Below are positions 36,040 to 63,468 of a stretch of DNA of 64,000 bases, one piece after another (the stretch's first letter is position 1; each line of letters opens with the position of its first letter). Location: contig AP031358.1 in assembly GCA_037833965.1 (NCBI GenBank), positions 4,658,001 to 4,722,000 on the forward strand, read 5' to 3'. Source of the DNA: Marchantia polymorpha subsp. ruderalis (taxonomy: Eukaryota > Streptophyta > Marchantiopsida > Marchantiales > Marchantiaceae). The translations under genes were made by a program, and so were the position numbers. Under the pieces are notes generated by a model that saw nothing but the letters and a program-made list of their open reading frames with translations, was not told where the DNA came from and did no database searches.

Positions 36040-36061
36040 GGGGGGGGGGGGGGGGGGGGGG
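36040..36061 (+). repeat. Run of 22 G
   Basis: Uninterrupted poly-G in the leader of copy A, where related copies have only GTTGGGTGC or GTTGGATG. It may be real slippage expansion or a sequencing or assembly artefact. Confidence 0.9.
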
Positions 36062-37101
36062 CTTAGGCCGAGGTCAGCGCCTTGGACGGAGCAGATGGTT
36101 CCTATTGGGGAGAGTGCCTTCGGCGCCTTTGGCAACAGGTCCTTTTGTGAGGTGTTTTCGACGATGCGCCTTCGGCGCAGACACCTCCAGAGGATCTGTC
36201 GCTGAAGACGCACGAAGCATGCCCAGCGAGCACCTTTGTCACAAGGAAAACAACCTCGTCACTCTGTTTGCCTTTGGCCGTACGCCTTCGGCGGTAGGTT
36301 CCTTCGCCCCAACACCTTCGGCACTAGTGCCTTCGTCGTTAGGTTTTTGCCTTTGGCGGAAGGAATGCCTTCGCCTCTAGGAAGCTCATTCGGTAAAAAG
36401 ATGCGCCTTCGGCGGAAAAGCTCGCCTTCGGCAGAAGAGGAAAGGACAACGGAAATAGCGGAAGTACGTACCTTCGGCACAAGCGCCTTCAGCCGTACGC
36501 CTTTGGAGGTACGCGAACGGAGAAGGGCGTCGGTAGAAATCAGCGGAATCAAGATTGAACGTACACGTGTGAAAGTCCGCACAACGGCAGAGCGTGAATT
36601 CGAGCGTGCAAATTGGGCCGTTACACCTCCGCGCCGGCATGGCATTCAAGCAGGCCGCGGCCAGTCTAAGTGTCGAACGTTGGGCAATCTTGATCGCCGA
36701 AGGAAAGAACTCACTCTCACTCTCACTCTCGCATTTTCAATTTCGCATCCGTCGGAGCTCGCGACGCGCAGCTGGTGAATTCGCGGAGAACTTGCGGAGT
36801 GATCCCTGAGAGATTGCTGAGTGTGAGGAGAGTGTGCGGATTTTCGAGAGTGTGCAATCGGAGTAGCTTGCGGAGAACTTGCACGGAGAGATTGCTGGAG
36901 TGCGCACACCGAGCTCGCGACGCGAGTACACAGAGAATTAGCGGAGAGCTCGCGGAAAGATTGAGAGGGAGTGGGAGGAGAATTGTAGCGAGTACATAGC
37001 AAGGTCGCCGAGCTCCAGACGCGCAGTAGCCGAGTGCGCAGAGAGAAGCAAGAAGTTCGCGTCGGCAGAGAGAAGGATTGTGCAGGAACTTGCAAGAACA
37101 T

Positions 37102-39421: not shown

Positions 39422-40405
39422 GGCATAGTAGATGACGTGAAGCGTAGAGTGTAGTGTTAGGTAGTTAGGATTTTAGAGTGTATAAAGCAGTTCAAGGCGT
39501 TTTGCCTTGGGGATTTTCCAGTTTCGGAAGTGCAATTCAGGAACTCATTTTCTCTACACATTTGTGTCCTTAGTTCTGTCACCGCGCAAGAGGAGCTACA
39601 GCTTGACGAAGTTACTGCATTTTGTAGCTGAAGGCCTTCGGCCGAATGCTCTGAGCTAGTGTAGTCTAGTTAGAACCTGAGCAGTTCGGACTTACACCTT
39701 CGGGTGATTGTTCCTGTTTGTACTCCTTCGGAATTTTTCCCCCTTAATGCCAAAGTGAAGTTTTGTTACTTCGAGTAAACCTTGGTTAACAATTCAGGTT
39801 GTACGGTGCTTGAGGCGCCTTCGGGGATAGCCTCCCCATTATTTCTAGGAATGACTAGTGCTTGAGAATTCAAACTCGTCAATAGACTGTTAAGTTGTGA
39901 CACTAGATCTTTTCTCAGTTGAGTCTCTAAGTTCGGTACATGTATTCTCTGCGCGTTTTGTAAGTTGAGTGTGTTGTTCACCGCGTGTTAGTGACTTCGG
40001 TTTGATGAAGGTACCGCATCCAAAGTAGGAAGTCCAACCCGGATGCTCTGCACTAGCAGTCAGAGTTAACAATCCGGAGTTGGGGAACATTACCTGCAGA
40101 TCCTCTAAGTGTGCTCGTGAGAAACTTTCCCCCTGAACCTTGAGTAGAGGTCCTAATCGGCCTCTTAGTTGTGCTTTTCCAGTTTCAGGTGTGTGTTGGG
40201 GTGAACTACGCTGCACTGTGCGTCCTCCGAGTGACCTCCGAGTTGAGCACTTGCAATATTTCTGGGAGTGACAGTAGCCTGAGAATTCAAACTCCTCAAT
40301 AGTCTGTTAAAACGTGACATTTAGTACTCCGTGTGTTGCCTCTGTCCCTGTGGGTTCGACCTTTTGCTGCTATAATGCAGTTTTAGCCTTTGGTGGGTTA
40401 TTACA

Positions 40406-41615: not shown

Positions 41616-42635
41616 TGTAATAACCCACTAAAGGCTAAAACTGCAATATAGTGGTAGAAAGGTCGAACCCACAGGGACAGAGGAACACACAGGGTACAAA
41701 GTGTCACATTTAACAGACTATTGAGGAGTTTGAATTCTCAGGCGACTATCACTCCCAGAAATACTGCAAGTGTTCACTCGGAGCTCACTCGGAGGTCGCA
41801 CAGTGCAGCGTACAACACACACACACACACACACGCACGCACACCTGAAACTACAGAAACACAACCCAGAGATCGGTTAGGACCTCTACTTAAGATTTCA
41901 GGGGGAAAGTCTCTCGCGAGCACTCAGCGAAGCTGCGGGTAGTGACTCCCAACTCCGGCTTTTACAACCCTCCCACTAGCTTTCTGCTAGCGTAGGGAAC
42001 CCGGGTTGGACTTCCTACTTCGGATCGAAGTCACTCATACGCGGTGAACAACACTCTCAACTCACAAAACGCGCAGAGAACACAGGTCCGCACGGAAGGA
42101 CTCACTGAGAAACGTTCCAGTAACACACCATAACAGTCTATTGAAGAGTTTGAACTCTTAGGCACTTGTCATTCCCAGAAATACTACAGGGGTTGCCCTA
42201 AAGGCATCTGCTGCAGCGTAACCTGAATTTACAACCAAGGCTTACACGAAGTAGCAAAACTTCACTTTGGCATTCAGGGGAAAATCCCGAAGGAGTACAA
42301 TCAGAAACAATCACTCGAAGGTGTAAGGGGGAAACTGTTCAAGTATCTAACTAGTCACTGGCTCTGAGCATCGGCAATCAACCGCAGGTGTAGATCCGAA
42401 CTACTCAAGTCTCTAACCAATGTACTAGCTCTGAACATTCGGCCGAAGGCCTTCAGCTACAAAATGCGGAACGCCAAGTTGTAGCTCCTCTTGCATGGTG
42501 ACAGAACTAAGGACACAAACACGCAGAGAAAATGAGTTCCTGATCTACACTTCCGAAACTGGAAAAATCCCAAGGCAAGACGCCTTGAACTACTTTATAC
42601 CTTCTAAGTCCTAACTAACACTACACTGCACTACG

Positions 42636-45423
42636 CTACGCGCCTGCACGGAACCACGCTACACTACACTCCGCAGAACCTGTGCTTCGCCTCCTGCGCG
42701 ACGGACTGCCGCGCACTAGCTCCCTGCCCTGCCAGTCTTCAGCTCGACTGCGCAGTCCCAAACGCCGCAACACCGCGGAAACCTCAGTCTCAAGGGTGGC
42801 CATGGTGTCCCGCGCCTTCGACAGAAAAGAATCCAGCTTCTTTGCCACTCGCCGCCGACTCCGACTGTCACCTGTCAACAACCCGGCTGCACGAAGCTCT
42901 AACTCACGCAATGTGAGTTTCTCCTGCGCCGCCACTTCCCAGTGGACGTAGCCCCTGAGACAGTGGGTGACACGCCTCGCCATCTCTTCCTTCGTGCGAT
43001 CTGCCTCCCGTCGGCGGTCGTTTTCAATTACAATCAACTGCGATTCGGCCTCCGCACGCTGTGCTCTCGAATCTCCGCACTCGGATTGCAGCCTGCGGAT
43101 TAATTCTTCATCCGCCTGTCGTGCGAGCTGACACTGCTCTAACAACCGCGTCTGTCGCACGAGCTCCTCTGACAAAATTCGATTTTGAGCCTGCTCAGAA
43201 TCCAGCGCTTCCGTGAGCTTCACCTGCTCCTTGGCGAGCTTTTCCAGTCTCCCATCCTTCACCTTGTTGAAGTGAACTTGTGTGGGGTCAGTACAACTTC
43301 TTATTGAGGTTGTACTGACCCCACAGGCACTCATGCTTCTCCCGCAGATCCTTAAGTTCATGTTCCACACGGGCTAGCAACTTGCTAGTGTGGACTTTAG
43401 TGCAAGTTCGCCTGCGCACTAACTCGATGTAGGACCTAGGCTGGCGAGGATCCGCGTACTTCTCCATCTTGCGATCCAAGTACCTCAACAGAGGTACTAC
43501 CTGCTCACAGAGCGCCGCCGCCGGCGCACCAACTAATTCCTCCTCCTCCTCCTCGGTGGATCCCGATCCCGACACTAATTCCGTGGATCCTCCTTCTTCG
43601 TCATCCTCCGAATTGAGGATTTCGATCGCCATTGAATGCGTCGGCGACTGGCCTGAGTGGGGCTGCGAGATGTCTGCGTGTTCTGCCGCCGCCGGCGCTC
43701 CTACAGCCTCGCTGCTCCCTGCTAAAATGTCCAAGGCGGTGGGTGAATGCGGCCGTGCCACATCCCAATCGTCCGCCTGTCGTGCCGCGACTGTAACTTC
43801 TTCGCCGCCGGCGTCTACCACCGAAGGCGATCGTGCGGAATGTACCTGCGCGGGGTGTAATTGTGCATCGCGCGCACGAATTTCATCCTGCGGACAGACA
43901 ATCCGCTCCACCGATCGGTCTTGCTCCACCCTTAGGTCCTGCGTCAGGGATGCGTCCGGCCTACGCGTAGGCGCAAATCCCGGCGCTTCATCCGCCGAAG
44001 GCGATAGAGCCGAAGGCGGCCCGCCCGATGTCCCTTGGCCTGAAGGCCCTTCCGCCAAAGGCGCATCTTCCGGCGGATTTTCCGCCGAAGGCGCGGCTTC
44101 CGCCGGCTCTCTGGTTGTAACTCGTTGGTTCGAAGGCCCTGGCGCCGAAGGCGCAAATCTCGGCGCTCTTTCTGCCGGAGGGCCTTGTCCTGAAGGCCCT
44201 TGAGCCAAAGGCGGATCTTCCGCCGGCTCCTTCCCCTTCCTGCGTTGTACCGGGGGTGAGGCCTGCCTATGCGTAGGCAAACTTTCTCTGCCTATGCGTA
44301 GGCACAAATCCACGTCCGCAAGGGGTCGTCTATCCACAGGAAGTCGCCTATGCGTAGGCGGCACACTCATCCGCGCCGCACGTGATAACTCCTGACCCGA
44401 AGGTCGTCTCCCTTCCGCCGAAGGCGTAGGGTGGTCTACCGCCCCTTCGGCCGTCCGCGTAGTCCCATCCTTCTCCGGGGACGGACTTCCCTTTTATGTG
44501 GCGATCGTCGCCGTTTCCGCGCTGCTGGCCGGTAACACAAGCCTGGGCGCCTTCTGCTTTGGCCGGCTGCAGACTTTGTGCAGTGGCCGCTTCCGGGTGA
44601 GAGCAACTGATTCTCGATGTTGCTCTTTCTCCGGTTCCTCTCTCCATCTTCGCTTCCGCGGCACTCGCGCTGCGGGTGTGTCTCTCCCCGCATCCTGTTG
44701 AGTCGGCGGAGTGGAAGTCGGCGAATCCTCCGCGTCGGTGTCTACCTCGTTATCCCGCACATACCTCCCGGGATGGTCGACTGACAATGGCAGAAATCGA
44801 GCACGCTCGGCCGCGGTTAAACAACTCATCTCCCGATAAAAATTTATCAAGAAGGGAGAGAGGTGATTGAGAGTTCCTCCCCGCTCCTCAAACGCATGCT
44901 GTCGCATCACCCTATGCAGGATACGCGACCAGTGAATTGGAGCTCCGGCCAATGTGAGCTCTACGAAGGACACCTGCCACAACGTGATGTACGTAGTGCG
45001 GTGCGGCTGCAATAATTGCAGCAGCGCCATCGCTACGGTCCTGCGGAAACGATCTTTGTAGTCGCGGGTCCTGTACCCGTTCTTGGAAGACCTCTCCCGC
45101 TTGAACAATTCCACGAAGGAGGCTTCGTCCTGCTTCGTTACCTTGACGCTCTCACTGTCGAACAGGAGGTACCCGTCCTCACCTGCGCACCTCCCCAATG
45201 CCTGTCCCCAATCGCGGACAGTCCATCTATCTACGTGCGGACGTAATCCGCGCGTAGATGGTCGTTCCTCGTCCAGCCATTTGCGCATCATGTCTGCGCA
45301 CACGTAATTCCATCCCCACAGCAAGAATTTGAGTTTCCTTGTAATCAGCCGGTCCTCAAAGGCACGCAACCCATTCTGCGGGAGCTTGAGTGGCACCATC
45401 CGCAGCCTCATCGATTTCGACAT
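42636..45423 (-). pseudogene. Broken copy of the LTR-borne long gene (copy B2)
   Basis: Starts at ATG 45423 (MSKSMRLRMVPLKLPQNGLRAF). The N-terminal domain stays open to about 44494, then the frame shifts to 44370-43288 (disordered middle and ALCEQVVPLLRYLDRKMEKYA) and again to 43370-42636 (coiled coil and basic tail RSRAEDWQGRELVRGSPSRR). The middle is enlarged by repeats encoding PSAEGPSGQG-like blocks. At least two frameshifts disable it. Confidence 0.85.
44265..44360. repeat. Cluster of GCCTATGCGTAGGC palindromes
   Basis: Three copies at 44265-44278, 44290-44303 and 44345-44360 in copy B2. The related GCCTACGCGTAGGC lies at 43959-43972 and at the matching site of copy C (53663-53676). 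Similar CGCCTGYGCACAGGCG units occur at 45890-45905 and 45941-45956, and a variant at 45985-46000. Confidence 0.88.
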
Positions 45424-45475
45424 TGGGTTCTTGAAATTGGTTTGCGCAACTCTCTTCTCTGCTCTGCCCGAGCCT

Positions 45476-46040
45476 TGTGGAACCCCACTTTTGGTAATTT
45501 TGAGGAAATTAAAACATTTTTGGAAAACTGTACCCTGGCAGCAATGTAAATAGCCTTTGGTGCATCAAAACAGAGTGAATTCGGAAGATCGCGGAGATTC
45601 TCGAGGGATCTCGTAGAATCTAGGAGTTGGGTGCAGCAGTAAGGACGGGCACCACCCTCCCTGCGAGCCATGCAGTTAGGATCCCTACGGCGCAAGGCGC
45701 AGAACCCGCCTTCGGAGCTGCGTCCGCGGCGGTAGGGAAATCCTTCATATTTAGGTCAACCCCCGGACGCCTTGACTTAGCTAGGGTCTCGTTGGAAAGA
45801 GCTTGACGCACTGATTCCAACGAGCCCAAGAACGCCAACAGCGGATAAGGACTCCGGGAGTTATGAAGGTTGTAAGATACTCAACTTTTCGCCTGCGCAC
45901 AGGCGGAGAAGTTTTGTCCTATGCGCGGACGAAGGAAGTTCGCCTGTGCACAGGCGAAATAGGGTTTGAGGTAGGCGCGAAGTTCGCCTACGCACAGGCG
46001 TCCGCCTTTGTACAGACGCTTCGGCGTCGGCGGGAAATCC
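45476..46040 (+). mobile_element. Long-LTR 5' fragment in plus orientation
   Basis: Begins TGTGGAACCCCACTTTTGG, then the AATTAAAACATTTTTGGAAAA and GGCAGCAA blocks seen at the start of copy A, then leader-like sequence with the palindromes at 45890-46000. The right boundary is approximate. Confidence 0.65.
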
Positions 46041-46418
46041 GCCTTGGGCCCTAGAATTGCGCCTTGTGAGGTAGAAATTGTACGGCGCCTTCTGCGCCAG
46101 CGCAGCGCCGCTGCCGGGGAAGGAGCTGCCAGAATAGTAAAATCCGTACGGACATTTTCGAGTAGGAGTCCCTTAACAACAAAGCTTTTGCCAAAGGCGC
46201 TAGAGGCGCTCCTTCTCAATAGGAACCGTCCGTTTCGGCCAGGGCACCTGTCCCCGACATTGTGCCTAACTCGATGATTCTCGATGATTCTCCGTGACCT
46301 GTGATCTTTCATCTTTACTCTATTTTAGTGTACGGATTACTATTTATAGTTGTTGCTGCGGTACCTCTTTTCTAAGAATGTTTAAATTCCGCACAAAAAC
46401 AAAAAGTGGGTTACCATA
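46041..46418 (-). mobile_element. Long-LTR 5' fragment in minus orientation
   Basis: As reverse complement it starts at 46418 with TATGGTAACCCACTTTTTG and continues like copy A (GGTACCGCAGCAACAAC). It converges head to head with the plus fragment. It abuts Gypsy RNase H sequence at 46419. The inner boundary is approximate. Confidence 0.65.
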
Positions 46419-47504: not shown

Positions 47505-49902
47505 CAGGCCACCTTAAAAGGGGTAAAGAGGCCGCGCACTACCCCTTTTACCCCATTTAAGCTTTGGGCTTTTACCCCTTTTAGTGAACTGCGGCCTTTA
47601 CAAATTGTTGTCAACCGATCGATGTCGATGTCGTCAAGGACGCTTGTAACCACTGTAGCGAAGTCGAAGAGAGCGCAGACACCGTTCATTCTGTCCCACA
47701 AGCTGAAATACGGTCTCAAGATCGTTACGCGACATGTGCATACCCGTGCTGTCGAATCTGTGCGCTGCCTGTTCTGTGTCTACCACGGACGAGAGGAGAT
47801 TGTCGGCCAGAAACGTCAGCGACAGAAGACTGTCAATTGCAAGACCTGGGAAGTGTTCCGAAGCGACGCGTACGTGAAACACCATGTTCAACAGCATCCC
47901 ACAGCCTGGAAACTATATGATGCTGCCGATGCTGATGACAAGAAGCAATTCTTCCTCGACAAGATGGAGCATAAGAATACCTTGCATGCCCATCTGGGCA
48001 ATGCGAGCACTCCGCTGACCTTCTCGTTCGACGCCGCCATCATAGATGATATCATTCTATCCGCGTTCTTCGACGAAGACGAGATCGACAGCAGCTCATA
48101 CCGCCGTGCCGTAAAGTTGTTCCAGAAGGTTGTGGATCGTGAGTCCGACGGCGCGTACCATTATACGTCTACAATCAACAGGGCCATGCAATTTCAACTG
48201 ACAGCGCGCTTCCTCGCCATAGGTATGTCGTTCCGACAGATCGAACGTGCAGTTGATGCCACGCGGGAGGTCGCCAATGTCGCAAAGCTAGGCACGCTCA
48301 ACGAGATGTTGGTTGGCGACTATGCCCGTATCCTCGTCAGCGCCGGCTTGCAGATGCTCAGCAACGTTCTGAATCGTAGCGAGACCTGGGCATTCTCGCT
48401 AGCCAACGACAGCTCGACACACTTGAGCCTGTCGTATTTCGAGCAACGAATTCGTCTGCACGTTGCCGGCGATATCTTCAACCTGCATTTGATATCCATG
48501 CCCATGTTCGACCGGCACACCTCTGAGAACATGGCGTTGCTCGTGTTCAAGATCCTGGACGTCGTTTGTCCCAGCTGGCGCGACAAACTTCTCTGCGTCA
48601 GCACCGACGGTGCGAATACGATGACCGGCCGTCACAATGGCGTTGTCGCACGCATTCAGCGTGAGGCCACTCATCCATTGTACCGTATTTGGTGCCTGAT
48701 TCATCAGGTTGACCTGGTCTCAAAGCGCAATCTGCTCGCTCTATTCGACGGCGATTTCCAATGCATCATCAACAAGGTCGCCACCTGCTTGCGTAAACAG
48801 CAGAAGCTGATCGACGATATGGGTGCGACCTGTCCAAAGATGACCACTCGCTGGTTGGCCTTAGGCGTCTGGACCAAATGGCAACTCGATCATCGCATCG
48901 ACCTGGAGACCTGGTTTGCGAGTCGTACCGCGCCAGGGCAGCTGCAGCTGCCCCGTTGGTGGTGGCCAATCATTGCAGGCGTGTGTGCGGTGATGACGCA
49001 GCTGAACTTTGCCATCGTCAAACTGCAGTCGAAGAATCTGCTGCTTTCGCAGCAGATCGCCGAGATCGAACGCGTCGTCAGTATCATCTGCATCAAGTGC
49101 GAGGTTGAGGTCGTGAATCCGCTCGTCGAAGGAGAAGTTGCAGCCGACGAGACGCAATCGGCAATCTGTGGTAAGTGGTCGATCACTCATCGCAATGTCG
49201 AGAAGTTCTTGCTTGACCAGGGTTCGTTCGTCAAGCATGTCTTGGATGCCATGACCGTCATTCAGCGTGCTGAGGTGTTCAGTGAGATGGGTACTTTCGT
49301 TGTCGGCATGATCGATGGCATCTTACAACTGGTCGCTTCTCGGGACGCTGACAACCTACCATCGGAGGAGGAGATTCCGCCGGTGCTGCCCCACCAGCTT
49401 ATCGCGATTCGACCAGCCGCATTCGCTGCACTCGCCAACAAACACGGCGGACGACTTGCTCAGCTGGGCGAGAACGTCATGGATCGCATCGAACAAGATC
49501 ACCGTGAACTCATCACTGCATTCGACAACGAGCCGTCGCTTCACGACGCGCTTGGTCGCTGCAACAACGATACGTCATTTCGTGAAGGTTGGGCGGTCGT
49601 CGAGGGTCGTTTCCGTGGTCTGCGTGACTTCTGCGGTGGCATCGCCACCATCTTTCCAAACACTGCTTCGGTGGAGTCTAGCTTCTCAATTCTCGGCTGG
49701 GAGAAGGATGCAAACCGCATGTCCCTCACCGATCTGGCGTTGGAAGGCTGCATGCAGGCGCGGCAGTTTGATCTCCTATCAAAACTAGCCTAATTCGTCA
49801 AATAAACCATTAGTTCCACTTTTACCCCTTTTAAGCTTTGTGGCGACCATTATATAAGCTAAAAGGGGTAAATGTGGATATTACCCCTTTTAAGGTGGCC
49901 TG
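47505..49902 (+). mobile_element. Intact compact hAT transposon inserted in the Gypsy remnant
   Basis: 2,398 bp with perfect 22-bp terminal inverted repeats (47505-47526 and 49881-49902, starting CAGGCCACCTTAAAAGGGGT). The motif TTACCCCTTTTA or its complement occurs three times at each end (near 47514, 47540, 47572 and 49820, 49860, 49881), as expected for transposase binding sites. One uninterrupted gene fills the space with about 110 bases on each side. No 8-bp target duplication is seen: the flanks are GAGGCCAC and ACCTAATA. Confidence 0.92.
47622..49793 (+). CDS. hAT-family transposase, intact
   Basis: 723 residues from ATG to TAA with no break. An N-terminal BED-like zinc finger (C49, C52, H87 or H88, H92) should bind the element ends. 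The RNase H-like catalytic core has likely D263 (LANDSSTH) and D329 (CVSTDGANTMTG), the conserved W357-C358-x2-H361 (RIWCLIHQVDLV) and E685 in SVESSFSILGW, within the C-terminal dimerisation region that ends MSLTDLALEGCMQ. The gene is distinctly richer in G and C, with many C/G third positions, than the AT-rich DNA around it. The style of the motifs recalls hAT proteins seen widely in oomycetes; this is an impression from memory, not a search. An apparently complete gene in perfect ends suggests recent arrival. Confidence 0.92.
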   Translation: MSMSSRTLVTTVAKSKRAQTPFILSHKLKYGLKIVTRHVHTRAVESVRCLFCVYHGREEIVGQKRQRQKTVNCKTWEVFRSDAYVKHHVQQHPTAWKLYDAADADDKKQFFLDKMEHKNTLHAHLGNASTPLTFSFDAAIIDDIILSAFFDEDEIDSSSYRRAVKLFQKVVDRESDGAYHYTSTINRAMQFQLTARFLAIGMSFRQIERAVDATREVANVAKLGTLNEMLVGDYARILVSAGLQMLSNVLNRSETWAFSLANDSSTHLSLSYFEQRIRLHVAGDIFNLHLISMPMFDRHTSENMALLVFKILDVVCPSWRDKLLCVSTDGANTMTGRHNGVVARIQREATHPLYRIWCLIHQVDLVSKRNLLALFDGDFQCIINKVATCLRKQQKLIDDMGATCPKMTTRWLALGVWTKWQLDHRIDLETWFASRTAPGQLQLPRWWWPIIAGVCAVMTQLNFAIVKLQSKNLLLSQQIAEIERVVSIICIKCEVEVVNPLVEGEVAADETQSAICGKWSITHRNVEKFLLDQGSFVKHVLDAMTVIQRAEVFSEMGTFVVGMIDGILQLVASRDADNLPSEEEIPPVLPHQLIAIRPAAFAALANKHGGRLAQLGENVMDRIEQDHRELITAFDNEPSLHDALGRCNNDTSFREGWAVVEGRFRGLRDFCGGIATIFPNTASVESSFSILGWEKDANRMSLTDLALEGCMQARQFDLLSKLA

Positions 49903-51337: not shown

Positions 51338-53969
51338 TGTAATAACCCACTAAAGGCTAAAACTGCAATATAGTGGTAGAAAGGTCAAACCCACAGGGAC
51401 AGAGGAACACACAAGGTACAAAGTGTCACATTTAACAGACTATTGAGGAGTTTGAATTCTCAGGCGACTGTCACTCCCAGAAATACTGCAAGTGTTCACT
51501 CGGAGCTCACTCGGAGGTCGCACAGTGCAGCGTACAACACACACACACACACACACACCTGAAACTACAGAAACACAACCCAGAGATCGGTTAGGACCTC
51601 TACTCAAGATTTCAGAGGGAAAGTCTCTCGCGAGTACACTCAGCAAAGCTGCGGGTAGTGACTCCCAACTCCGGCTTTTACAACCCTTCCACTAGCTTTT
51701 TGCTAGCGTAGGGAACCCGGGTTGGACTTCCTACTTCGGATCGAAGTCACTCACACGCGGTGAACAACACTCTCAACTCACAAAATGCGCAGAGAACACA
51801 GGTCAGCACAGAAGGACTCACTGAGAAACGTTCCAGTAACACACCATAACAGTCTATTGAAGAGTTTGAATTCTTAGGCACTTGTCATTCCCAGAAATAC
51901 TACAGGGGTTGCACTGAAGGCACCTGCTGCAGCGTAACCTGAATTTACAACCAAGGCTTACACGAAGTAGCAAAACTTCACTTTGGCATTCAGGGGAAAA
52001 ATCCCGAAGGAGTACAATCAGGAACAAACACTCGAAGGTGTAAGGGCAAAACTATTCAAGTATCTAACTCCTCACTGGCTCTGAGCATCGGCAATCACCC
52101 GCAGGTGTAGGTCCGAAGTACTCAAGTCTCTAACCAATGTACTAGCTTTGAACATTCGGCCGAAGGCCTTCAGCTACACAATGTGGATCGCCAAGGTGTA
52201 GCTCCTCTTGCGTGGTGACAGAACTAAGGACACAAACACGTAGAGAAAATGAGTTCCTGATCTGCACTTCTGATGTTGGGAAAGATCACAAGGCAAGACG
52301 CCTTGAACTACTTTATACCTTCTAAGTCCTAACTAACACTACACTGCACTACGCTACACGCCGGCACGGAACCACGCTACACTACACTCCGCGGAACCTG
52401 TGCTTCGCCTCTTGCGCGACGGACTGCCGCGCACTAACTCTCTACCTTGCCAGTCTTCAGCTCGACTGCGCAGTCCCAAATGCCGCAACACTTCGGAAAC
52501 CTCCGTCTCAAGGGTGGCCATGGTGTTCCGCGCCTTCGACAGAAAAGAATCCAGCTTCTTCGCCACTCGCCGCCGACTCCGGCTATGACCTGTCAACAAC
52601 CCGGCTGCACGAAGCTCTAACTTATGCAGTGTGAGTTTCTCCTGCGCCGCCACTTTCCAGTGGGTGTAGCCCTTGAGACAGTGGGTGACTCGCCTCGCCA
52701 TCTCTTCCTTCGTGCGATCTGCCTCCCGCCGGCGATCGCCTTCAACCTCAACCAACTGCGATTCGGCCTCCACACGTTGTGCTCTCAATTCCCCGCACTC
52801 AGATTGCAGTTTGCGAATTAATTCCTCATCCGCCTGTCGTGAGAGCTGACACTGCTCTAACAACCGCGTCTGTCGCACGAGCTCTTCTGACAAAATTCGA
52901 TTCTGAGCCTGCTCAGAATCCAGCGCTTCTGTGAGCTTCACCTGCTTCTTGGCGAGCTCTTCCAGTCTCCCATCCTTCACCCTGGCGAAGTGTTTGTACA
53001 CCTTCTTATTGAGGGTGTACTGACCCCACAAGCATTCATGCTTCTCCCGCAGCGCCTTAAGTTCCTGGTCCACATGGGTTAGCTACTTGCTAGTGTGGAC
53101 TTTAGTGCGAGTTCGCCTGCGCACTAACTCGACGTAGGACCCAAGCTAGCGAGGATCCGCGTACTTTTCCATCTTGCGATCCAAGTACCTCAGCAGAGGT
53201 ACTACCTGCTCACAGAGCGCCGCCGCCGGCGCTTCAACTAATTCCTCCTCCTCCTCCTCGGTGGATCCCGATCCCGACACTAATTCCGTGGACCCTCCTT
53301 CTTCATCATCCTCCGAATTGAGGATTTCGGTCGCCATTGATTGCGTCGGCGACTGGCCTGGGTGGGGCTGCGAGATGTCTGCGTGTTTGCCGCCGCTGGC
53401 GCTCCTTCAGCCTCGCTGCTCCCTGTTAAAATGCCCAAGGCGGTGGGTGAATGCGGCCGAGCCCCATCCCCATCGCCCGCATGTCTTGCCGCGACTGTGA
53501 CTTCTTTGCCGCCGGCGTCTACCGCCAAAGGCGATCGCGCGGAATGTACCTGCGCGGGGTGTAATTGTGCATCGCGCGCACGAATTTCATCTTGCGGACA
53601 GACAATCCGCTCCTCCGTTAGGTCCTGCTCCACCATTAGGTCATGCGCCAGGGATGCGTCTGGCCTACGCGTAGGCGCAAATCCCGGCGCTTCATCCGCC
53701 GAAGGCAGTAGAGCCGAAGGCGGCCCGCCCGATGTCCCTTGGCCCGAAGGCCCTTCCGCCGAAGGCGCATCCTCCGGCGGATATCCCGCCGAAGGCGCGG
53801 CTTCCGCCGGCTCTCTGGTTGTAACTCGCTGGCTCGAAGGCCTGGCGCCGAAGGCGCATATCTCGGCGCTCTATTCGCCGGAGGGCCTTGTCCCGAAGGC
53901 TCTTGAGCCGAAGGCGGATCTTCCGCCGGCTCCTTCGCCTTCCTGCGTTGTACCGGGGGTGAGTCCTGC
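51338..53969 (-). mobile_element. Long-LTR copy C (truncated by insertion of copy D)
   Basis: Minus-strand copy with terminus TGTAATAACCCAC at 51338 and TATA box at 52312-52317. It matches B2 up to GTACCGGGGGTGAG and then stops at 53969, where the LTR start TGTGGTAACACAC of copy D begins. The rest should lie beyond the right edge. Confidence 0.82.
52354..53969 (-). pseudogene. C-terminal half of the LTR-borne long gene (copy C)
   Basis: Coiled-coil part open at 53073-52354 (EHECLWGQ-type start to RRSTGSAECSVAWFRAGV). The LCEQVVPLLRYLDRKMEKYA motif lies in 53337-53146. The disordered middle is in shifted frames up to 53969. A stop lies between the motif and the coil (SYLLA region changed to a stop near 53085). 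The N-terminal domain is absent. Confidence 0.82.
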
Positions 53970-56900
53970 TGTGGTAACACACTTTTTGTTTTTTTTGCAG
54001 AATTTAAACAATTTTAGAAAACAAGTACCGGAGCAGTGTCTGTAGTTAGAAAAGGGTACGTTAAATAGAGTGGATTGAGGAGATCGTCACGAGGTCACGA
54101 AGAATCGCGAAGTTGGATGTACCCGCGCCAAATGTCTTTGGCGCCTTCGGCAAGAGCTCCTTTGCTGAGGTGTCTCTACTCACGCGCTTCCAGCGTTTAA
54201 GGAAGATACGCTTCCGGCGCAGACACCTCCGGAGGAGATCTTGCTAAAGACGTCAGAAGACGGCAAGGACCTCTGAAGGCTTCCGACCATGAGTGCGCCT
54301 TCGGCGATGCGCCGCTAGCGCGGAAGGGAAACCTTCATAACAATCAGAATACACGGTAGCTCCAGTTGGTTGAGGTTGCATTGGAAAGAGCTCGGGACGC
54401 TTGTTCTAACGAGCCCAAGAGCGTCGGAGATGGATCAGGGATGAAGAAGTTATGAGCATCGGAAAACTCGTAGCCGGACATGCGCCGCTCGCGCTAGGGT
54501 TCACCGTCGGAAAGGACTCCCGTACGCCTTCGGCGATGCGCCTTCGGCGGAATCACGCGCTCATGGGAGGAAATCAACTTAGAGGCGGAAGCGCCTCTGG
54601 CGGCTACGCAACGGAAGAAAAGCGCCGGCCGGATGTACGCCTCCGACGTGGCGCGGATAGGCGGATGCGCTGGCATGATTTGCGCCGGCGGGATATGCGC
54701 CGTCAGCAATAGACGGGGCAGAACGGACAAAACAAGTGGTACGAATACGCGCCGGCGTAATTCGCGCCGACTTGAGGTGCGCCTCCAGCGAGGCGCCGAC
54801 GGAGAAGGAATACGCTAGCGGTGATACGCCTCCGGCGATGGTTAGGTTAGAAAAAGACAACATAGCCGACGCATACACTGCGGCGAACTCGAGTCCGGAA
54901 GACGGCGCCGAAACTTGAGTCCGGAAGACGATTGCGGCGGGAGAATTCAACATTCACGCATGCGGATGCGCGCAGTGCGGAGACGTGAATTCGAGCATGC
55001 GAGGGCGAACCGTTAGGCCGTATAGCCGGCTGCGTAATTGTAACCAGTAAGAACGTTGGACGATCTTGAATTCGGAGAAGAAAAGACTGCTCTCCAGTCT
55101 CATTCTCTCATTCTTGATTTTGCGATTTCCAGCTTCCAAGATTACGCGCAAGGGCGGAGAGACCTGCAGTGAGAGGAGAGAGTGCGGAGACGAGTTGCGC
55201 AAGGATCTTGACAGACCTTGCAGAGAATTTGCGAGTAGCGAACTTGAGCGCGCAAGAGAAGAGAGAGCGATTGTAGTAAGTGTTTGAGCGGCCGACGCGC
55301 AGCAGCGATTGTGAGAGAGCGAGCGGAAGGGAGAACGTCTGTGTGTGCAGGAAACGCAATGTCGAAGGTCGCCCAGCTGCGAGTGTCTCCACTTAGAGTG
55401 CCGCAGATCGGTCTGCGCGCATTCCAAGATGTGCTAACAGGGCTGAAGCTCGATTTCCTCCTGTGGGGATGGAACTGGACATGTCCGGAGATGGTGCGCG
55501 AGTATCTGCAGGAGAGACACAAGCCCTCGCGCGGATTCCGCCCACATCCAGAGAGGTGGGACATTTGTGACTGGGTGCAGGTGTTGGGCAGGTGTGCCGG
55601 CGAGGAAGGGTTTCTCCTCTTCGAGGCCGATAGCGTGAAGGTGTCCAAGGAGGAAGAAATCTCCTACAATGAGCTTTTCAAAGTTGCCAAGCATCCCAAG
55701 AACGGTTTCCGGACACGGGATTACAAAGATCGATTGCGGAGAAATGTCGCGACTGCATTGCTGCAAATATTGCAGCCGACCAAGACCGCTTACATGCATG
55801 GTTGGCAAGTAGGATTTGTGGAGCTAGTGATGTAAGGAGCTCCAGTTCATTGGGCACGGCTCCTGTGGAAGGTGACGCGCCAACATGCACAAGAAGAGAG
55901 AGGAGGAACCCTCAATCATCTTTCGCCTTACCTGATTGTGTTTTATCGGGCGATGGGATGTTTGACAAATTCAGAGCGGACACGGTTTCCGCTGCTGACC
56001 CGGAGCTATCCAGGTAGATACTCGCGGGAGGCCGAAGTAGACACGGATCCGGACGAGGCACCTGCCAGTCCAACTCCGGCTCCGCCTCCAACAAGAGCAG
56101 CAGAAGAACGTCGAAGTGAGCGCGCTCCGCGAAAGCGGAAATGGGATGAGAGACCTGAGGACAGGCAGCCGGAAGTGCCAGCTGCGCCGACTCGGAGTCG
56201 GCCAACCAACGAGCCTCACAGCTGGCCGAAACAGAGGGCACGCAAAGTGCCAACTAGTACTGAGGAGACCGGGCGTACTCCGGTCCGGCGGAGTATCCTG
56301 CCCACGCAGGAGGAGATAATCGCGCAGATTCTGGGGAAGTCGGTGAATACCTCTGCGCAGAAGGCACCGATGCCTTCGGAAGAAGACAGACGGACTGACA
56401 GTCGGCCGACTACGAGTCAGGCGACTGAAGGTCGACAAACGGAAGGAAGGCCGATTGAGCAGCGCGTTGAACCGGACAGCAGGCCGGAAGCAGAAGAGAG
56501 TTTGGCTGACGAGCCAACAATCCGCAGAGGGTCGTCTTCGGCGGAAGGCACTTCTGGGAAAACGCCGCCAGCAAGCAGGCCAAGTGGAGTGAAGACGCGC
56601 AGGGTAGATCCGACTGCCAGTCGGACAACTGCTAGTCGGCCGACTGCGAGTCGGTCAACAGAGAGTCGGCCAGATTCGCCGACTGCGAGACGGACAGGGC
56701 CGGCGACCATTGTGCGGGCGCCTTCGGCGGACGCACCTCCTGCGAAGACACCTTCCGCGCAGATCGCGCCGGAAGGGCAGGCAGCAGAAGCGGGCGGTGC
56801 AAAGGTGACAAAAGTCACTGCGGCGTCGACCCCTTCGGAAACCGAAGATCGAGCCGGAACAGGGGCTCAAGCAGTGGGATCCCCCACTGCCTTGGATATT

Positions 56901-58518
56901 TTAGCAGGGAGTGGAGCGGCAGTCGCGGCGGAAGCTGCCGCGCGCCACAGTTCCAAGGAGTCGCCAAGGGATTCGGTGGCGACTGAAATCCTCGAAACGG
57001 AGGATGAGACGAGTTCGGAAGAGCAGGAAGCGGACTCTGTGCAGAAAACGCCAACAGGGGTGTTGTGCGAGCAGATAGTTCCACTCCTGCGATATCAGGA
57101 TCGCAAGACATCCAAGTACTCGGGTTCCGGAAAACCGCAGTCTTACGTGGAGACTGTCAAGCGCAGGACGAGGAGCAAGGTGGCCACTTGGGCCTCTAGG
57201 TGCCAAACATTGCAGGATAGGAACACTACCCTCCGACAGCACCTGGCGGTCACGCAGAAAGCTATACCAAACCCTGCAACAACGGAGGGAGGATGCGGCG
57301 ACGAAAGACCAGGCGGATGCCGAGCTAATGCGGGCAAAGATCGAGTCGGAATTGCAGGAAGAGCGGAGACAAAACCGCATCTTAGCAGAAGAGCTTGCGC
57401 GCCAGAAGCGCACCTTAGAAGAAAGTCAAAGTACACGCAAGGAGGATGAGGAATTGTTGCGCAACTTGCAATCCGAGTGCGCAGATTTGAGGGCGCAGCG
57501 CGCAGATGCGGAAATGCAGCTGGCAGAGGTGGAAGGCAGCTGCCGGACGCGAGAAGAGTTGGCGACGCGGGTGACTCACTATCTAAAAGGATACGCCCAT
57601 TGGGAGGTGGCAGCTCAAGAGAAGATCACACTCAGGGAGTTTGAGCTTCGGGCGGCGGCATTGACGGAGGGTGACAGTCAGAGTCGGCGGCGAGTAGCAA
57701 GGAAATTAGAAGCCTTCTTGTCGGGTGCGCACGACACCATGGCGCACTTGGAGTCGGAAGTGACTGCAGCCCTCCGGCGTCTGGGGTTGCGCAGCCGGTC
57801 GGAAGATTGGCAAGGTAGAGATAGAGAGCGAGGCAGTCCGGCGCACAGGAGGCGCAGCACCGGATCTGCAGAGTGCAGTAGCGTAGTTTGGTTTCGTGCA
57901 GGTGTTGCGAGTAGCAGATAGGATAGCGTAGTGTTAGTTAGGACCTTAGAGGGTATAAAGTAGATCAAGGCGTTTTGCCTTGGGACTCTTCCAGTTTCGG
58001 AAGTGCAGATCAGGAACTCACTTTCTTGGCGTGTTTGTGCATTTGGTCCTGGCACCACGTAGAGAAGCTGCAGCATAGCGAAGTTACCGTATGTTGTAGT
58101 TGAAGGCCTTCGGCTGAATGTTCAGAGCTAGTACCCGGTTAGAGACTTGAGTAGTGCGGATCTGCACCTACGGGTGATTTCTGATGCTCAGAGCCGGCTG
58201 CGAGTTAGAGACTTGAACAGTTCCCCCTTACTCCTTCGAGTGACATATCCTGATTGTACTCCTACGGGAAGTTTCCCCTGAATGCCAAAGTGAAGTTTTA
58301 TTACTTCGTGTAAGCCTTGGTTTGCAATTCAGGTTGTGTGTGTGTGTTACTGGATTGTGTCTCAGTTAAGTTCTCAGTCGGGCCTATACTCTCTGCGTTT
58401 GGTGTGAGTCGAGGGTGACGTCCACGGCGTATGAGGGGCTTCGTTCCGAAGTGGGAAGTCCAGTCCGGGTTCCCTACGCTAGTTCCTTGCGGAAGGGCAG
58501 TAAAAGCCGGAGTGGGAG
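53970..58518 (+). mobile_element. Long-LTR copy D (interrupted by copy E)
   Basis: Starts TGTGGTAACACACTTTTTG at 53970 and matches copy E closely throughout: leader, gene, TATA box at 57954-57959 and tail. It stops at 58518 inside AAAGCCGGAGTGGGAG, where E begins; E has the same sequence in its own tail near 63015-63028. E is therefore nested in D. Confidence 0.85.
55359..57921 (+). pseudogene. Nearly intact copy of the LTR-borne long gene (copy D)
   Basis: ATG at 55359 (MSKVAQLRVSPLRVPQ). Compared with E it has one nonsense change at about 55833-55835 (TAA in place of the Ser codon of LSGAPVHW) and one inserted A near 57260 that shifts the frame before the coiled coil. Everything else follows E, including the LCEQIVPLLRYQDRKTSKYS motif and the basic tail. 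Two lesions suggest recent decay. Confidence 0.87.
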
Positions 58519-59873
58519 TGTGGTAACACACTTTTTGTTTTTTTTGCAGAATTTAAACAATTTTAGAAAACTAGTACCAAAGCAGTGTTTGTAGCTAGAG
58601 AAGGGTACGCTAAATAGAGTGGATTGATGAGATCGTCACGAGGGCACAAAGAATCACGTAGTCGGATGTACCAACGCCAACGTCTTCGGCGCCTTCGGCA
58701 AAAGCTCCTTTTTGAGGTGTCTCTACTCACGCGCCTCTAGCGTATAAGGAAGCTACGCTTCCGGCGCAGACACCTCAGGAGGAGGTTTTGCTAAAGACGT
58801 CAGGAGAAGGGCCCGGACCTCTAAAGGCATCCGACCATGAGTGCGCCTTCGGCGAAGCGCCGCTAGCGCGGAAAGGGAAAACCTTCATAACAATCGGGAT
58901 ACACGGTAGATCCAGTTGGTTGAAGTTGCATTAGAAAGAGCTCGGGACGCTCGTTCTAACGAGTCCAAGAGCGCCGGAGATGGATCAGGAATGGAGAAGT
59001 TATGAGCGTCGGAAAACTCGTAGCCGGACATGCGCCGTTCGCGCTAGGGTTCACAGCCGGAAAGGATTCCCGTACGCCCTCGGCGATGCGCCTTCGGCGG
59101 AATCACGCGCTCACAGGAGGAAACCAACTCAGAGTCGGAAGCGCCCTTGGCGGCTGTTCATGGAAGGAAAGCGCCGGTCGGATGTACGCCTCCGACGTGG
59201 CGCTGACGGCCGGATGCGCTGGCATGAGTTGCGCTGACGGATATGCGCTGGCAGCAACGGACGAGGCATAAAGGACAAAATAGGCGGTACGACTGCGCGC
59301 CGGCGTAATTCGCTCCGGCTGGATGTGCGCCTCCAGCAAGGCGCCGACGGATAATGAACGCACCAGCGGCGACACGCCTCCGGAGAAGGGCGGGTTAGGA
59401 AAAGACAACAGGGCCGACGTATACCCTGCAGCGGACTCGAGTCCGGAAGGTGGTGGCGGCGGGAGAATTCAACGTTTAAGCATGCGAATGCGCGCAATGC
59501 GGGGACGTGAATTCGCGCATGCAAAGGGCGAACCGTTAAGCCGTATAGCCGGCTGCGTACGTTGCAACCAGTAAGAACGTTGGACGTTCTTGAAATCGGA
59601 GAAGAAAAGACTGCGCTCCAGTCTCATTCTCTCATTCTTGACTTTGCAATTTCCAGTTCCAAGATTACGCGCAAGGGCGGAGCGACCTGCAGTGAGAGTA
59701 GAGAGTGCGGAGACGAGTTGCACAAGGATCTTGGCGGACCTTGAAAGAATTGGGAGTAGCGATCTTGAACGAGCGCAGAGAGAGTGAGCAGTCAGTGCTT
59801 GAGTGGCCGACGCGCAGTGGCGATTGTGAGAGAGTGAGCGAAAGGGAGAACGTTTGTGTGTGCAGGCAACGCA

Positions 59874-62429
59874 ATGTCGAAGGTTCCCCAACTGCGAGTG
59901 TCTCCACTCAGGGTGCCGCAGATCGGTCTACGCGCATTTCAAGATGTGCTGACGAGGCTGAAGCTCGATTTTCTCCTCTGGGGGTGGAATTGGACGTGTC
60001 CGGAGATGGTGCGCGAGTATCTGCAAGAGAGACACAAGCCTTCTCGCGGATTTCGCCCACACCCAGAGAGATGGGAAATTTGCAATTGGGCGCAGGTGTT
60101 GGGCAGGTGTGCCGGCGAGGAAGGGGATCTCCTCTTCGAGGCCGACAGCGTGAAAGTGTCCCAGGAGGAAGAAGTCTCTTACAATGAGCTCTTCAAGGTG
60201 GCTAGACATCCCAAGAACGGTTTCCGGACTCGGGATTACAAGGATCGATTGCGGAGAAATGTCGCGACAGCATTGCTGCAGATATTGCAGCCGACCAAGA
60301 CCGCTTACATGCATGGTTGGCAGGTAGAGTTCGTGGAGCTAGTGTTGTCAGGAGCTCCGGTGCATTGGGCACGGCTCCTGTGGAAGGTGACGCGCCAACA
60401 TGCGCAAGAAGAGAGGGGAGGAACGCTCAATCATCTATCGCCTTACTTAATCGTGTTTTACCGGGCGATGGGATGTTTGACGAATGCTGAGAAAACTCGG
60501 TTTCCGCAGCTGAGCCGGTCTTATCCAGGTAGATATTCGAGGGAGGCCGAAGTAGACACGGATCCGGACGAGGAACCTGCCAGTACGCCTCCGGCTCCGG
60601 CTCCAGCCAGAGCAGCAGAAGAACGTCGAAGTGAGCGCATTCCGCGAAAGCGGAAGTGGGATGAGAGACCTGAGGACAGGCAGCCGGAAGTACCAGCTGC
60701 GCCGACTCGTGGTCGGCCCACCCCCGAGCCTCACAGTCGACCAAAACAGAGGGCACGCAAAATGCCAACTGTTACTGAGGAGACCAGGCGAACTCCGACC
60801 CGGCGGAATCTCACACAGGAAGAGATAATCGCTCAGATTCTAGGGAAGACGGCAGATACCTCTGCACAGAAGGCACCACGGCCTTCGGGAGGAGATGGAC
60901 GGACTGACAGCCGGCCGACTGCGAGTCGGATGACTGAAGGTCGACAAGCGGAAGGAAGGCCAACTGAACGGCGCGTTGAACCGGACAGCAGGCCGGAAGC
61001 GGAAGAGAGTTTGGCTGACGAGCCAACAATCCTCAGAGGGTCGTCTTCGGCGGAAGGCACTTCTGGAAGAACGCCACCAGCAAGCAGGCCAAGTGGAGTC
61101 AAGACGCGCAGGGTGTATCCGACTCCCAGTCGGACAACTGCTGGTCGGCCGACTGCGAGTCGGACAACAGAGAGTCAGTCGGATTCGCCGACTGCGAGAC
61201 GGATGGGGCCAACGACCAGTGTGCGGACGCCTTCGGCGGACGCACCTTCAGCAAGGACACCTTCCGCGCAGAATGCGCCGGAAGGACAGGCAGCAGAAGC
61301 GGGCGGTGCAAGAGTGACAAAAGTCACTGCGGCGTCGACCCCTTCACAAACCGAAGATCGAGCCGGAACAGGGGCTCAAGCAGTGGGATCTCCCACTGCC
61401 CTGGATATTTTAGCAGGCAGTGGAGCAGCAGTCGCAGCGGAAGCTGCTGCGCGCCACAGTTCCAGGGAGTCGCCAAGGGATTCGGTGGCGACTGAGATCC
61501 TCGAGACTGAGGATGAGACGAGCTCGGAAGAGCAAGAAGAGGATTCGGTGCAGAAAACGCCAACAGGGGTGCTGTGCGAACAGATAGTTCCACTCCTGCG
61601 ATATCTGGATCGCAAGACATCCAAATACGCAAGTGCCTTAAAACCGCAGTCTTATGTGGAGACTATCAGGCGAAGGACGAGGATCAAGGTGGCAAAGTGG
61701 GCCTCTAGTTGCCAAGTATATGTGGAAAGGAACACCGCCCTCAGACAACACCTGGCGGTCACCCAGAAGCTGTACCAAGCCTTGCAGCAGCAGAAGGAGG
61801 ATGCGGCGACGAAGAGTCAGGCGGAGGCCGAACTAATACGGGCAAAGATCGAGTCGGAACTGCAGGAGGAGCGGAGACAGAACAAAGTCCTAGCAGCCGA
61901 GCTTGCGCGCCAGACGCGCGCCTTAGAGGAAAGTCAAAGAGCCCGCAAGGAGGATGAGGAGTTGTTGTGCAACTTGCAAACCGAGTGCTCGGATTTGAGG
62001 GCACAACGTGCGGAATTAGAAATGCAGCTGGCAGAGGTGGAGAGCAGCTGCAGGGCACGAGGAGAGTTGGCGGCACGGGTGACTCGTTGTCTAAGCGGAT
62101 ACACCCATTGGGAGGTGGCAGCTCAAGAGAGGGTTACACTCCGGGAGTTCGAGCTTCGGGCGGCGGCCTTGACGGAGGGTGACAGTCGGAGTCGGCGGCG
62201 AGTGGCGAGAAAATTAGAAACTTTCTTGTCGGGTGCGCGCGACACTTTGGCGCACTTGCAGTCGGAAGTCACTGCAGCGCTCCGACGCCTGGGATTACGC
62301 AGCCGGTCGGAAGACTGGCAAGGTAGAGACAGTAAGCGGAGCAGTCCGGCGCGCAGGAGGCGCAGCACCGGATCTGCTGAGTGCAGTAGAGTAGTTTGGT
62401 TTCGCGCAGATGCTGCGAGTGGTAGATAG
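59874..62429 (+). CDS. Intact long gene inside the LTR (unknown function)
   Basis: 851 residues from ATG 59874 (MSKVPQLRVSPLRVPQ); an in-frame GTG at 59856 is less likely. Residues about 10-215 form a Trp-rich globular domain (GLRAFQDVL, LLWGWNWTCPEMVREYLQER, GFRTRDYKDRLRRNVATALL, HWARLLWKVTRQH, LNHLSPYLIVFYRAMGCL). Residues 220-510 are disordered, rich in Pro, Ser, Thr, Arg and Glu, with PTASR-type repeats. A conserved TALDILAGSGAAVAAE and acidic stretch lead to GVLCEQIVPLLRYLDRKTSK. Residues about 625-745 form a heptad-rich coiled coil, and the tail is basic (RRRRSTGS). No enzyme, zinc knuckle or membrane segment is seen. The globular domain faintly recalls plant transposon-associated 'Transposase_32' proteins (order of hydrophobic and W/H positions only). 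It may be a Gag-like structural or nucleic acid-binding accessory protein; function is unknown. Confidence 0.82.
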   Translation: MSKVPQLRVSPLRVPQIGLRAFQDVLTRLKLDFLLWGWNWTCPEMVREYLQERHKPSRGFRPHPERWEICNWAQVLGRCAGEEGDLLFEADSVKVSQEEEVSYNELFKVARHPKNGFRTRDYKDRLRRNVATALLQILQPTKTAYMHGWQVEFVELVLSGAPVHWARLLWKVTRQHAQEERGGTLNHLSPYLIVFYRAMGCLTNAEKTRFPQLSRSYPGRYSREAEVDTDPDEEPASTPPAPAPARAAEERRSERIPRKRKWDERPEDRQPEVPAAPTRGRPTPEPHSRPKQRARKMPTVTEETRRTPTRRNLTQEEIIAQILGKTADTSAQKAPRPSGGDGRTDSRPTASRMTEGRQAEGRPTERRVEPDSRPEAEESLADEPTILRGSSSAEGTSGRTPPASRPSGVKTRRVYPTPSRTTAGRPTASRTTESQSDSPTARRMGPTTSVRTPSADAPSARTPSAQNAPEGQAAEAGGARVTKVTAASTPSQTEDRAGTGAQAVGSPTALDILAGSGAAVAAEAAARHSSRESPRDSVATEILETEDETSSEEQEEDSVQKTPTGVLCEQIVPLLRYLDRKTSKYASALKPQSYVETIRRRTRIKVAKWASSCQVYVERNTALRQHLAVTQKLYQALQQQKEDAATKSQAEAELIRAKIESELQEERRQNKVLAAELARQTRALEESQRARKEDEELLCNLQTECSDLRAQRAELEMQLAEVESSCRARGELAARVTRCLSGYTHWEVAAQERVTLREFELRAAALTEGDSRSRRRVARKLETFLSGARDTLAHLQSEVTAALRRLGLRSRSEDWQGRDSKRSSPARRRRSTGSAECSRVVWFRADAASGR
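60915..60929. repeat. In-frame micro-hairpin CCGACT-GCG-AGTCGG (example)
   Basis: 15-nt hairpin unit encoding PTASR. Further copies, with loop variants, lie in copy E at 61119-61133 and 61149-61163 and in copy D at 56186-56202, 56610-56624 and 56640-56654. Its length of 15 keeps the gene in frame. Confidence 0.8.
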
Positions 62430-62462
62430 GATAGCGTAGTGCTAGTTAGGATCTTTTGAGAG

Positions 62463-62468
62463 TATAAA
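62463..62468 (+). promoter_or_regulatory. Conserved TATA box in the LTR
   Basis: TATAAA, followed after about 10 bases by the hairpin AAGGCGTTTTGCCTT. The same pair occurs at the same place in copies A (39481), B1 (41490, inverted), B2 (42594, inverted), C (52312, inverted) and D (57954). It is likely the promoter of the retrotransposon RNA, placing the start of R a little downstream. Confidence 0.65.
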
Positions 62469-63407
62469 GTAGATCAAGGCGTTTTGCCTTGGGACTCTTC
62501 CAGTTTCGGAAGTGCAGATCAGGAACTCACTTTCTTGGCGTGTTTGTGCGTTTTGGTCCTGGCACCACGTAGAGAAGCTGCAGCATAGCGAAGTTACCGT
62601 ATGTTGTAGTTGAAGGCCTTCGGCTGAATGTTCAGAGCTAGTACCCGGTTAGAGACTTGAGTAGTGCGGATCTGCACCTGCGGGTGATTTCTGATACTCA
62701 GAGCCGGCTGCGAGTTAGATACTTGAACAGTTCCCCCTTACTCCTTCGAGTGACATATCCTGATTGTACTCCTACGGGAAGTTTCCCCTGAATGCCAATG
62801 TGAAGTTTCATTACTTCGTGTAAACCTTGGTTTGTAATTCAGGTTGTGTGTGTGTTACTGGATCGTGTTTTCAGTAAGTTCTCAGTCGGGTCTGCACTCC
62901 CTGCGTTTTGTGTGATAGTCGAGGGTGACGTCCACGGCGTACGTAGAGGCTTCGTTCCGAAGTGAGAAGTCCAGTCCGGGTACCCCCGCTAGTTCCTGGC
63001 GGAAGGGCAGTAAAAGCCGGAGTGGGAGGCACTTCCTGCAGAACCTCTGAGTGAACTTGCGAGACACTTTCCTCCTGAAATCCGAAGCGGAGGTCCTGAC
63101 CGACCTCCGAGTTGTGCTTTTTGCCAGTTTCAGGTGTGTGTGTGTGTGTTGAGTGACCAAGCTGTACCGTGCATCCTCCGAGCATCCTCCGAGTTGAGAT
63201 CCTCCTCCGAGTCGAGCCTCCGAGTCGAGCACTGCAGTATTTCTGGGAGTGACAGTCGCCTAGAATTCAAACTCTACCAAAAGTCTGTTAAATGTGACAC
63301 TTTTACTCTGTGTGTTGCCTCTGTCCCTGTGGGTTCGATCTTTTTACCACCATACTGCAGTTTTAGCCTTTGGTGGGTTATTACATAAGGAGCCGACAAC
63401 TTCTTTT

Positions 63408-63425
63408 TGGCGCCGCTGCCGGGGA
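63408..63425 (+). other. Primer-binding site (tRNA-Asp type)
   Basis: TGGCGCCGCTGCCGGGGA matches the complement of the 3' end of plant tRNA-Asp, which gives GTT where this has GCT: one mismatch in 18. It starts 22 bases after the LTR end (63385), a longer gap than the usual few bases. Confidence 0.85.
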
Positions 63426-63468
63426 CAGTGCGTCAACACCAGAAACCTTGAGCAGCAATGCTCGGTGA

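Follow-up and report, generated by a model that had tools for sequence, protein, structure and literature searches.

A conserved protein gene inside the U3 region of the long terminal repeats of a Ty3/Gypsy retrotransposon family of Marchantia polymorpha

The 64,000-nt stretch of the Marchantia polymorpha genome analyzed here (the window; G000:C9:4658001-4722000 of a 241-Mb, 9-contig assembly) contains copies of a Ty3/Gypsy retrotransposon family whose long terminal repeats (LTRs) have a complete protein gene, on the sense strand, within their U3 region. Coordinates are those of the window, and sites beyond it are given as window-equivalent positions. Copy E is a complete element, with both LTRs, a 5-bp target-site duplication (TSD), a primer-binding site (PBS), gag-protease (gag-PR), reverse transcriptase-RNase H-integrase (RT-RH-INT) and a polypurine tract (PPT), the latter being a purine-rich tract directly 5' of the 3' LTR (Table 1). 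Its LTRs start with TGTGGTAACA and end with TTATTACA, and the LTR ends proposed in the first-pass annotation of this DNA are correct. The 3' LTR is located beyond the window at 69176-74042, in DNA fetched to the right, and shows 4 differences from the 5' LTR over 4867 bp. The 5' LTR is followed, as the same annotation had read it, by a PBS (TGGCGCCGCTGCCGGGGAC), which we take to be of the tRNA-Asp type, and by gag. The Pfam matches appear in the order Retrotrans_gag, zf-CCHC, protease (below its cut-off), RVT_1, RT_RNaseH, and rve, and gag, PR, and RT-RH-INT thus follow one another as in Gypsy elements. No chromodomain, the feature by which a chromovirus would be recognized, was found after the integrase of copy E (Pfam, E up to 0.01). 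Two RNase H models match one single region of the element, neither of them being specific for the second, archaeal-type RNase H that marks the Tat/Ogre/Retand group. Copy E is nested at GGGAG in the LTR of copy D (53970-63385), whose sequence resumes 3' of E.

The gag-PR and RT-RH-INT regions of copy E are in the same frame and are split by a TAG at 66295-66297 (L009:3295-3297). This TAG, followed by CAA CTA, is kept in E and in 10 of 10 other copies. Because this context fits the stop-readthrough motif UAG CAR YYA, pol may be produced by readthrough.

The LTR gene is an 851-codon frame that lies, as previously claimed, wholly between the two ends of the 5' LTR and upstream of a TATA box. The sole TATA(A/T)A on the gene strand of this LTR is found at 62463, ~33 bp 3' of the gene, and thus the gene belongs to U3 by this criterion, the promoter position having been judged from the TATA box only. 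The stop codon of pol is separated from the 3' LTR by just 37 bp, and therefore the gene is not also present in the internal region of E; this agrees with the proposal that it is a part of the LTR and not of the internal region, a conclusion drawn on copy E, since no search for the gene was made in the internal parts of other elements. A possible 3' splice site, a CAG at the end of a T/G-rich stretch, is located 8 bp 5' of the ATG, and this candidate CAG is common to copies E, D, and A. No antisense open reading frame (ORF) of ≥150 aa was observed inside the gene among the listed ORFs. The 3' LTR of E also holds the gene, in agreement with the prediction of two gene copies per insertion. Thus, a full insertion carries two copies of the gene, and a solo LTR keeps one.

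Table 1. Features of the window, with those of the LTR-gene family listed first.
Feature	Coordinates	Strand	Remarks
5' LTR of copy E	58519-63385	+	4867 bp; 99.918% identical to 3' LTR
5-bp target duplication GGGAG	58514-58518	.	second GGGAG directly after 3' LTR, beyond window
U3 upstream of LTR gene	58519-59873	+	no TATA(A/T)A on gene strand
LTR gene, 851 codons	59874-62429	+	ATG at 59874, stop ends at 62429; wholly inside LTR
TATAAA	62463-62468	+	same place in copies D, C and locus L073
Primer-binding site	63408-63426	+	read in sequence 3' of 5' LTR
gag-PR frame, 942 codons	63469-64000	+	gag start at 63469; runs past window; TAG, then RT-RH-INT
Copy D, LTR interrupted by E	53970-58518	+	broken gene at 55359-57918
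Solo LTR A	35901-40405	+	broken gene at 37100-39340; 50% protein identity; 6 stops
Copy C, older-subfamily LTR	41616-46418	-	gene at 42639-45423; 41% identity in one block, 63% in the other
LTR part of a further copy	51338-53969	-	C-terminal gene piece at 52363-53355, 49% identity
723-aa open frame	47622-49793		sub-threshold hAT dimerisation match
431-aa open frame	19202-20497	-	strong DDE_Tnp_4 transposase match
tRNA-Thr (TGT) gene	31015-31088	-	tRNA call in window

The gene is present in many other LTRs of the host genome. A protein search with the LTR gene gave 13,506 first-look candidates, 53 of which were scored; all 53 cover residues 1-851, and 46 of them have no stop. Sixteen neighbouring gene pairs are 10,652-10,662 bp apart, i.e., at the LTR-to-LTR distance, and both members are open in 13 of them (a tandem array of three copies is included as two pairs). 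When LTRs were fetched by probes outside the gene (17 via the LTR end and 3 via the LTR start), 16 of the 20 contained an open frame of 849-859 codons. The exact 20-mer of the LTR end occurs 2,311 times, and in 457 cases the sequence continues into the leader before the PBS (0 with a reversed-pattern control), 409 ends matching through the start of the PBS. Assuming one 3' partner for each of the 457, ~1,397 of the 2,311 ends are unpaired and would correspond to solo LTRs, truncated copies, or other subfamilies. All the named homologues retrieved in protein searches belong to M. polymorpha (9/9, 31/31, and 72/72, besides 4 and 17 unnamed ones in the second and third sets), and no relative from outside Marchantia was named in these searches. 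One annotated protein of M. polymorpha subsp. ruderalis also has a best match of 100% over 195 residues, which makes this liverwort the very probable host. There are also head-to-tail arrays with a spacing of ~10,660 bp (G000:C6:10773073-10805649 and C9:5363403-5387273), which look as if produced by unequal recombination between LTRs. The first 3.3 Mb of contig C1 (5.6 Mb, a size obtained by subtraction), perhaps the sex chromosome, hold at least 100 of the 2,311 LTR ends, about three times its share.

The ratio of nonsynonymous to synonymous substitution rates (dN/dS) was calculated to determine the selection on the gene. Pooled over all pairs of 17 intact copies, it amounts to 0.289 (codon bootstrap 0.215-0.391) and thus is not near 1 across young copies. 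The N-terminal domain (residues 1-228) is the most constrained part, with a dN/dS of 0.111 (0.037-0.235), while residues 229-560 and 561-851 yielded 0.384 and 0.355, respectively. At the same sites, the other two forward frames gave 1.30 and 1.15, and the antisense frames gave 1.08, 1.29, and 0.36. The segregating sites are distributed as 48, 60, and 121 over codon positions 1, 2, and 3. When each distinct variant was counted once, we found 113 nonsynonymous and 121 synonymous changes and no stops (P = 1.5e-11), against a neutral expectation of 66.7% nonsynonymous, 29.4% synonymous, and 3.8% stop (8.9 stops). A further stop test, with 29.5 stops expected and 0 seen, is conditional on 16 copies chosen as intact, since some loci had been dropped before the counts: L047, L061, and L062 were left out of the gene alignment, and the 3' LTR of E and L053 were also left out of the dN/dS and variant counts. 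For comparison, a dN/dS of 0.18 (0.09-0.33) was obtained for the N-terminal part of gag in 28 copies, in which the LTR gene gave 0.34 (0.22-0.57) over its C-terminal 359 codons, this set being 31 sequences minus L022 and L023 (broken or misaligned) and L019 (copy E itself). These results demonstrate that purifying selection acts on the protein sequence of the LTR gene among the young copies.

In the LTR copies L043-L060, the synonymous divergence of the gene from E is 2-8%, versus 0.4-1.1% in the noncoding upstream U3; this excess might be due to a constrained U3 or to sequence exchange among subfamilies.

The arrangement is not restricted to young copies. As had been noticed, copies C and D also carry the gene, that of D being broken by one stop and one frameshift, with 87% identity in one of its two blocks and 81% in the other. 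In copy C the TATA box is located downstream of the gene as in E, and no matching target duplication was found around this copy. Solo LTR A had been reported to carry a broken version of the gene and to have a 5-bp target duplication; the broken gene is indeed there, at the same position as in E, whereas the flanks GCGAG/ACGAG match in 4 of 5 bases. The A and E genes have a dN/dS of 0.19 with dS saturated. Of the noncoding U3 before the gene, the blastn pieces shared by both LTRs cover only 38 bp, but of the gene they cover several hundred bases. Locus L073, picked for its long frame from a search with a distant family member, holds the gene (51% and 46% identity) between a recognizable LTR start and TATAAAG, the end of its LTR being outside the fetched piece. 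Thus, older subfamilies with 41-63% protein identity hold the gene in the same place of the LTR, and because A, C, and L073 share their layout with E, the gene predates the split of the subfamilies. The search with the distant member rendered 151 matches in the genome, mostly broken, which indicates an old and populous family.

The encoded protein comprises an N-terminal domain (residues ~1-228), a linker rich in P, S, T, A, and R (229-560), and a C-terminal part (561-851). Its composition suggests that the linker is disordered and that the C-terminal part is coiled-coil-like. It contains no membrane segment, since its Kyte-Doolittle 19-residue maximum of 1.22 is too low for a membrane helix; an envelope glycoprotein was discarded on this ground. 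Two basic motifs, PRKRKW and PKQRARK, resemble nuclear signals. The profile searches suggested in the first-pass annotation were carried out and retrieved no known family: with E values up to 10 allowed, the 10 and 8 family members scanned matched none of the Pfam families better than by chance, and this includes the domains named for plant extra ORFs in PMC6317226 (Plant mobile domain, Transposase_28, and the Athila ORF-1 domain). PF20167 gave 0 matches in the host genome and also 0 in 14 control genomes, and hence it is uninformative. A search of PDB sequences with the protein gave no meaningful match. The structure prediction, also suggested there, yielded a model too weak to be used: AlphaFold, run on residues 1-240 with 10 sequences, gave a helical but poor model (mean predicted local distance difference test score, pLDDT, 49.6; predicted template modelling score, pTM, 0.46). 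The idea that the N-terminal domain may resemble domains of plant transposon ORFs was supported by no search.

Taken together, we find it fairly probable that the family carries a selected U3 gene with a nuclear accessory role, expressed from U3 or through splicing, that derives from an ORF downstream of pol. The product would be a nuclear accessory factor of the element rather than an envelope, because it shows basic patches and lacks a membrane segment, besides having a helical N-terminal domain, a disordered linker, and a coiled coil. Most likely, it would either regulate the expression or silencing of the element or help in the handling of RNA or cDNA. Two routes of expression can be proposed. 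The first 1.35 kb of U3 might contain a promoter without a TATA box, whose transcript would run through the gene to the poly(A) site of R; alternatively, the gene might be translated from an RNA spliced onto the CAG before the ATG, the 3' exon being the gene in the 3' LTR. In reverse transcription, the U3 of the genomic RNA is supplied solely by the 3' LTR, and thus the gene copy that is inherited is the one in the 3' LTR of the parent. The gene was probably acquired from an additional ORF downstream of pol, which would have been taken into U3 as the left edge of the LTR shifted upstream.

Several observations weigh against this interpretation. In copy E itself, the gene is open in the 5' LTR and has an early stop in the 3' LTR. 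Seven of the 53 scored genome matches are broken, as are 4 of the 20 LTRs fetched by the non-gene probes. One antisense frame has the low ratio of 0.36, which is to be expected if, as is probable, its third codon positions lie opposite those of the gene. With all 31 sequences, the ratios rise to 0.56 for the C-terminal part of the gene and 0.51 for gag, values distorted by the broken loci L022 and L023. Of 35 homologues, a good number being partial, only 15 and 10 were found to contain the basic motifs. Finally, the gene is known from DNA sequence alone, and no homologue, fold, or domain points to its function, the structure model being poor.

The alternatives differ in what they would make of the gene. 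The protein could act in trans on all the LTRs of the family, as a silencing antagonist or a transcription regulator, with the solo LTRs as working gene cassettes. We regard this as possible but doubtful: the basic patches and the coiled coil would suit such a role, and the unpaired LTR ends imply that many LTRs may stand alone, but their number also takes in truncated copies and subfamilies with another leader, the only solo LTR read (A) has a broken gene, and both its DNA binding and its expression are hypothetical. It appears unlikely that an envelope-like ORF, in the sense of Athila or SIRE, was absorbed into the LTR and serves in movement or membrane interaction. The sense orientation directly after pol would fit, since additional sense ORFs of plant elements are described between pol and the 3' LTR in the parts consulted of one source (PMC7264820), but the protein has neither a membrane-helix segment nor, at E up to 10, a Pfam match to a transposon-ORF family.

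That a host gene was recently captured and has no function for the element seems very improbable. Extra ORFs of plant elements are often of separate origin, according to the sections seen of PMC6317226, but the Marchantia gene is present under selection in several subfamilies with 41-63% identity, and the homologues found look like element copies, the annotated ones not having been checked singly as host genes. Hardly credible, finally, is an open frame that merely reflects composition or low age, despite the GC-rich sequence with long frames and the young copies: the other forward frames evolve at ratios above 1, no stops were seen in either count where 8.9 and 29.5 were expected, the latter in copies chosen as intact, and the protein is conserved up to the diverged copy A. 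A composition artefact was thus rejected by the frame comparison, the dN/dS values, and the distinct-variant counts, and a tandem-repeat or assembly artefact was discarded given the TSD, the PBS, the PPT, and the many unlinked copies.

A bolder extension, which we consider tentative, is that the LTR would be a self-contained cassette with its own U3 promoter, a conserved accessory gene, and a poly(A) site, and that solo LTRs would be potential sources of a trans-acting protein. If so, up to thousands of LTRs would form a dispersed gene family that helps or defends the surviving elements. LTRs are usually seen as noncoding control regions, and a gene kept intact there by selection is very unusual. 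With a selected 851-codon gene in its U3, a plant element would be evidence that LTR accessory genes exist outside vertebrate retroviruses. It would also change the reading of solo LTRs, which would be gene copies and not promoters alone, and, Marchantia being a genetic model, it would offer a testable case of an element-coded factor. Genome annotation is affected as well, since pieces of the LTR-gene family stand as hypothetical Marchantia host proteins. One database model, P0038 (MARPO_0006s0274), fuses part of the LTR gene with gag.

In plants, a few phrasings searched in open-licence full texts, seen in part, retrieved no LTR-borne gene or ORF (PMC6875170, PMC12037069, PMC1560396, PMC7302162), and the portions consulted of a liverwort genome paper, which reports 222 full-length LTR elements in M. 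polymorpha, do not mention LTR genes (PMC9985172). The extra ORFs of plant elements are placed in the internal region in the excerpts available to us (PMC7264820, PMC6317226, PMC11963269, PMC3485330, PMC9289625), and the elements concerned include Retand, Ogre, Athila, Grande, and RIRE2, whose sense ORFs mostly adjoin pol in the passages seen (PMC7264820, PMC6317226, PMC11963269). The Marchantia family resembles these elements in being a non-chromodomain Gypsy lineage with an extra conserved ORF, but its gene is inside both LTRs, whereas theirs are described either 5' of gag or in the interval from pol to the 3' LTR. It shares with Retrosat2, RIRE3, and RIRE8 of rice, as far as the source was seen, the long LTRs (>3 kb) and an extra ORF of unassigned role, the rice ORF0 being described there as internal and upstream of the gag-pol ORF (PMC3485330). 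Unlike this internal ORF0, the Marchantia gene is LTR-borne.

Accessory genes that reach into U3 are found in retroviruses, such as nef of the human and simian immunodeficiency viruses (HIV/SIV) and the bel genes of foamy viruses. These genes overlap the 3' LTR only partially, whereas the Marchantia gene lies wholly within the LTR. In mouse mammary tumour virus (MMTV), the accessory gene sag has its full length in U3, ahead of the LTR promoter, and by analogy it is the closest functional parallel for the location of the Marchantia gene. In the parts seen of PMC11998498, purifying selection on sag is reported, and the protein that this gene of a vertebrate retrovirus encodes is described as a type II membrane protein. 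The Marchantia protein differs from it in having 851 residues and no membrane segment and in belonging to a plant Gypsy element, and no sequence relation was seen between them; both genes coincide, however, in being complete in U3, 5' of the promoter (as judged in Marchantia by the TATA box), and in being selected.
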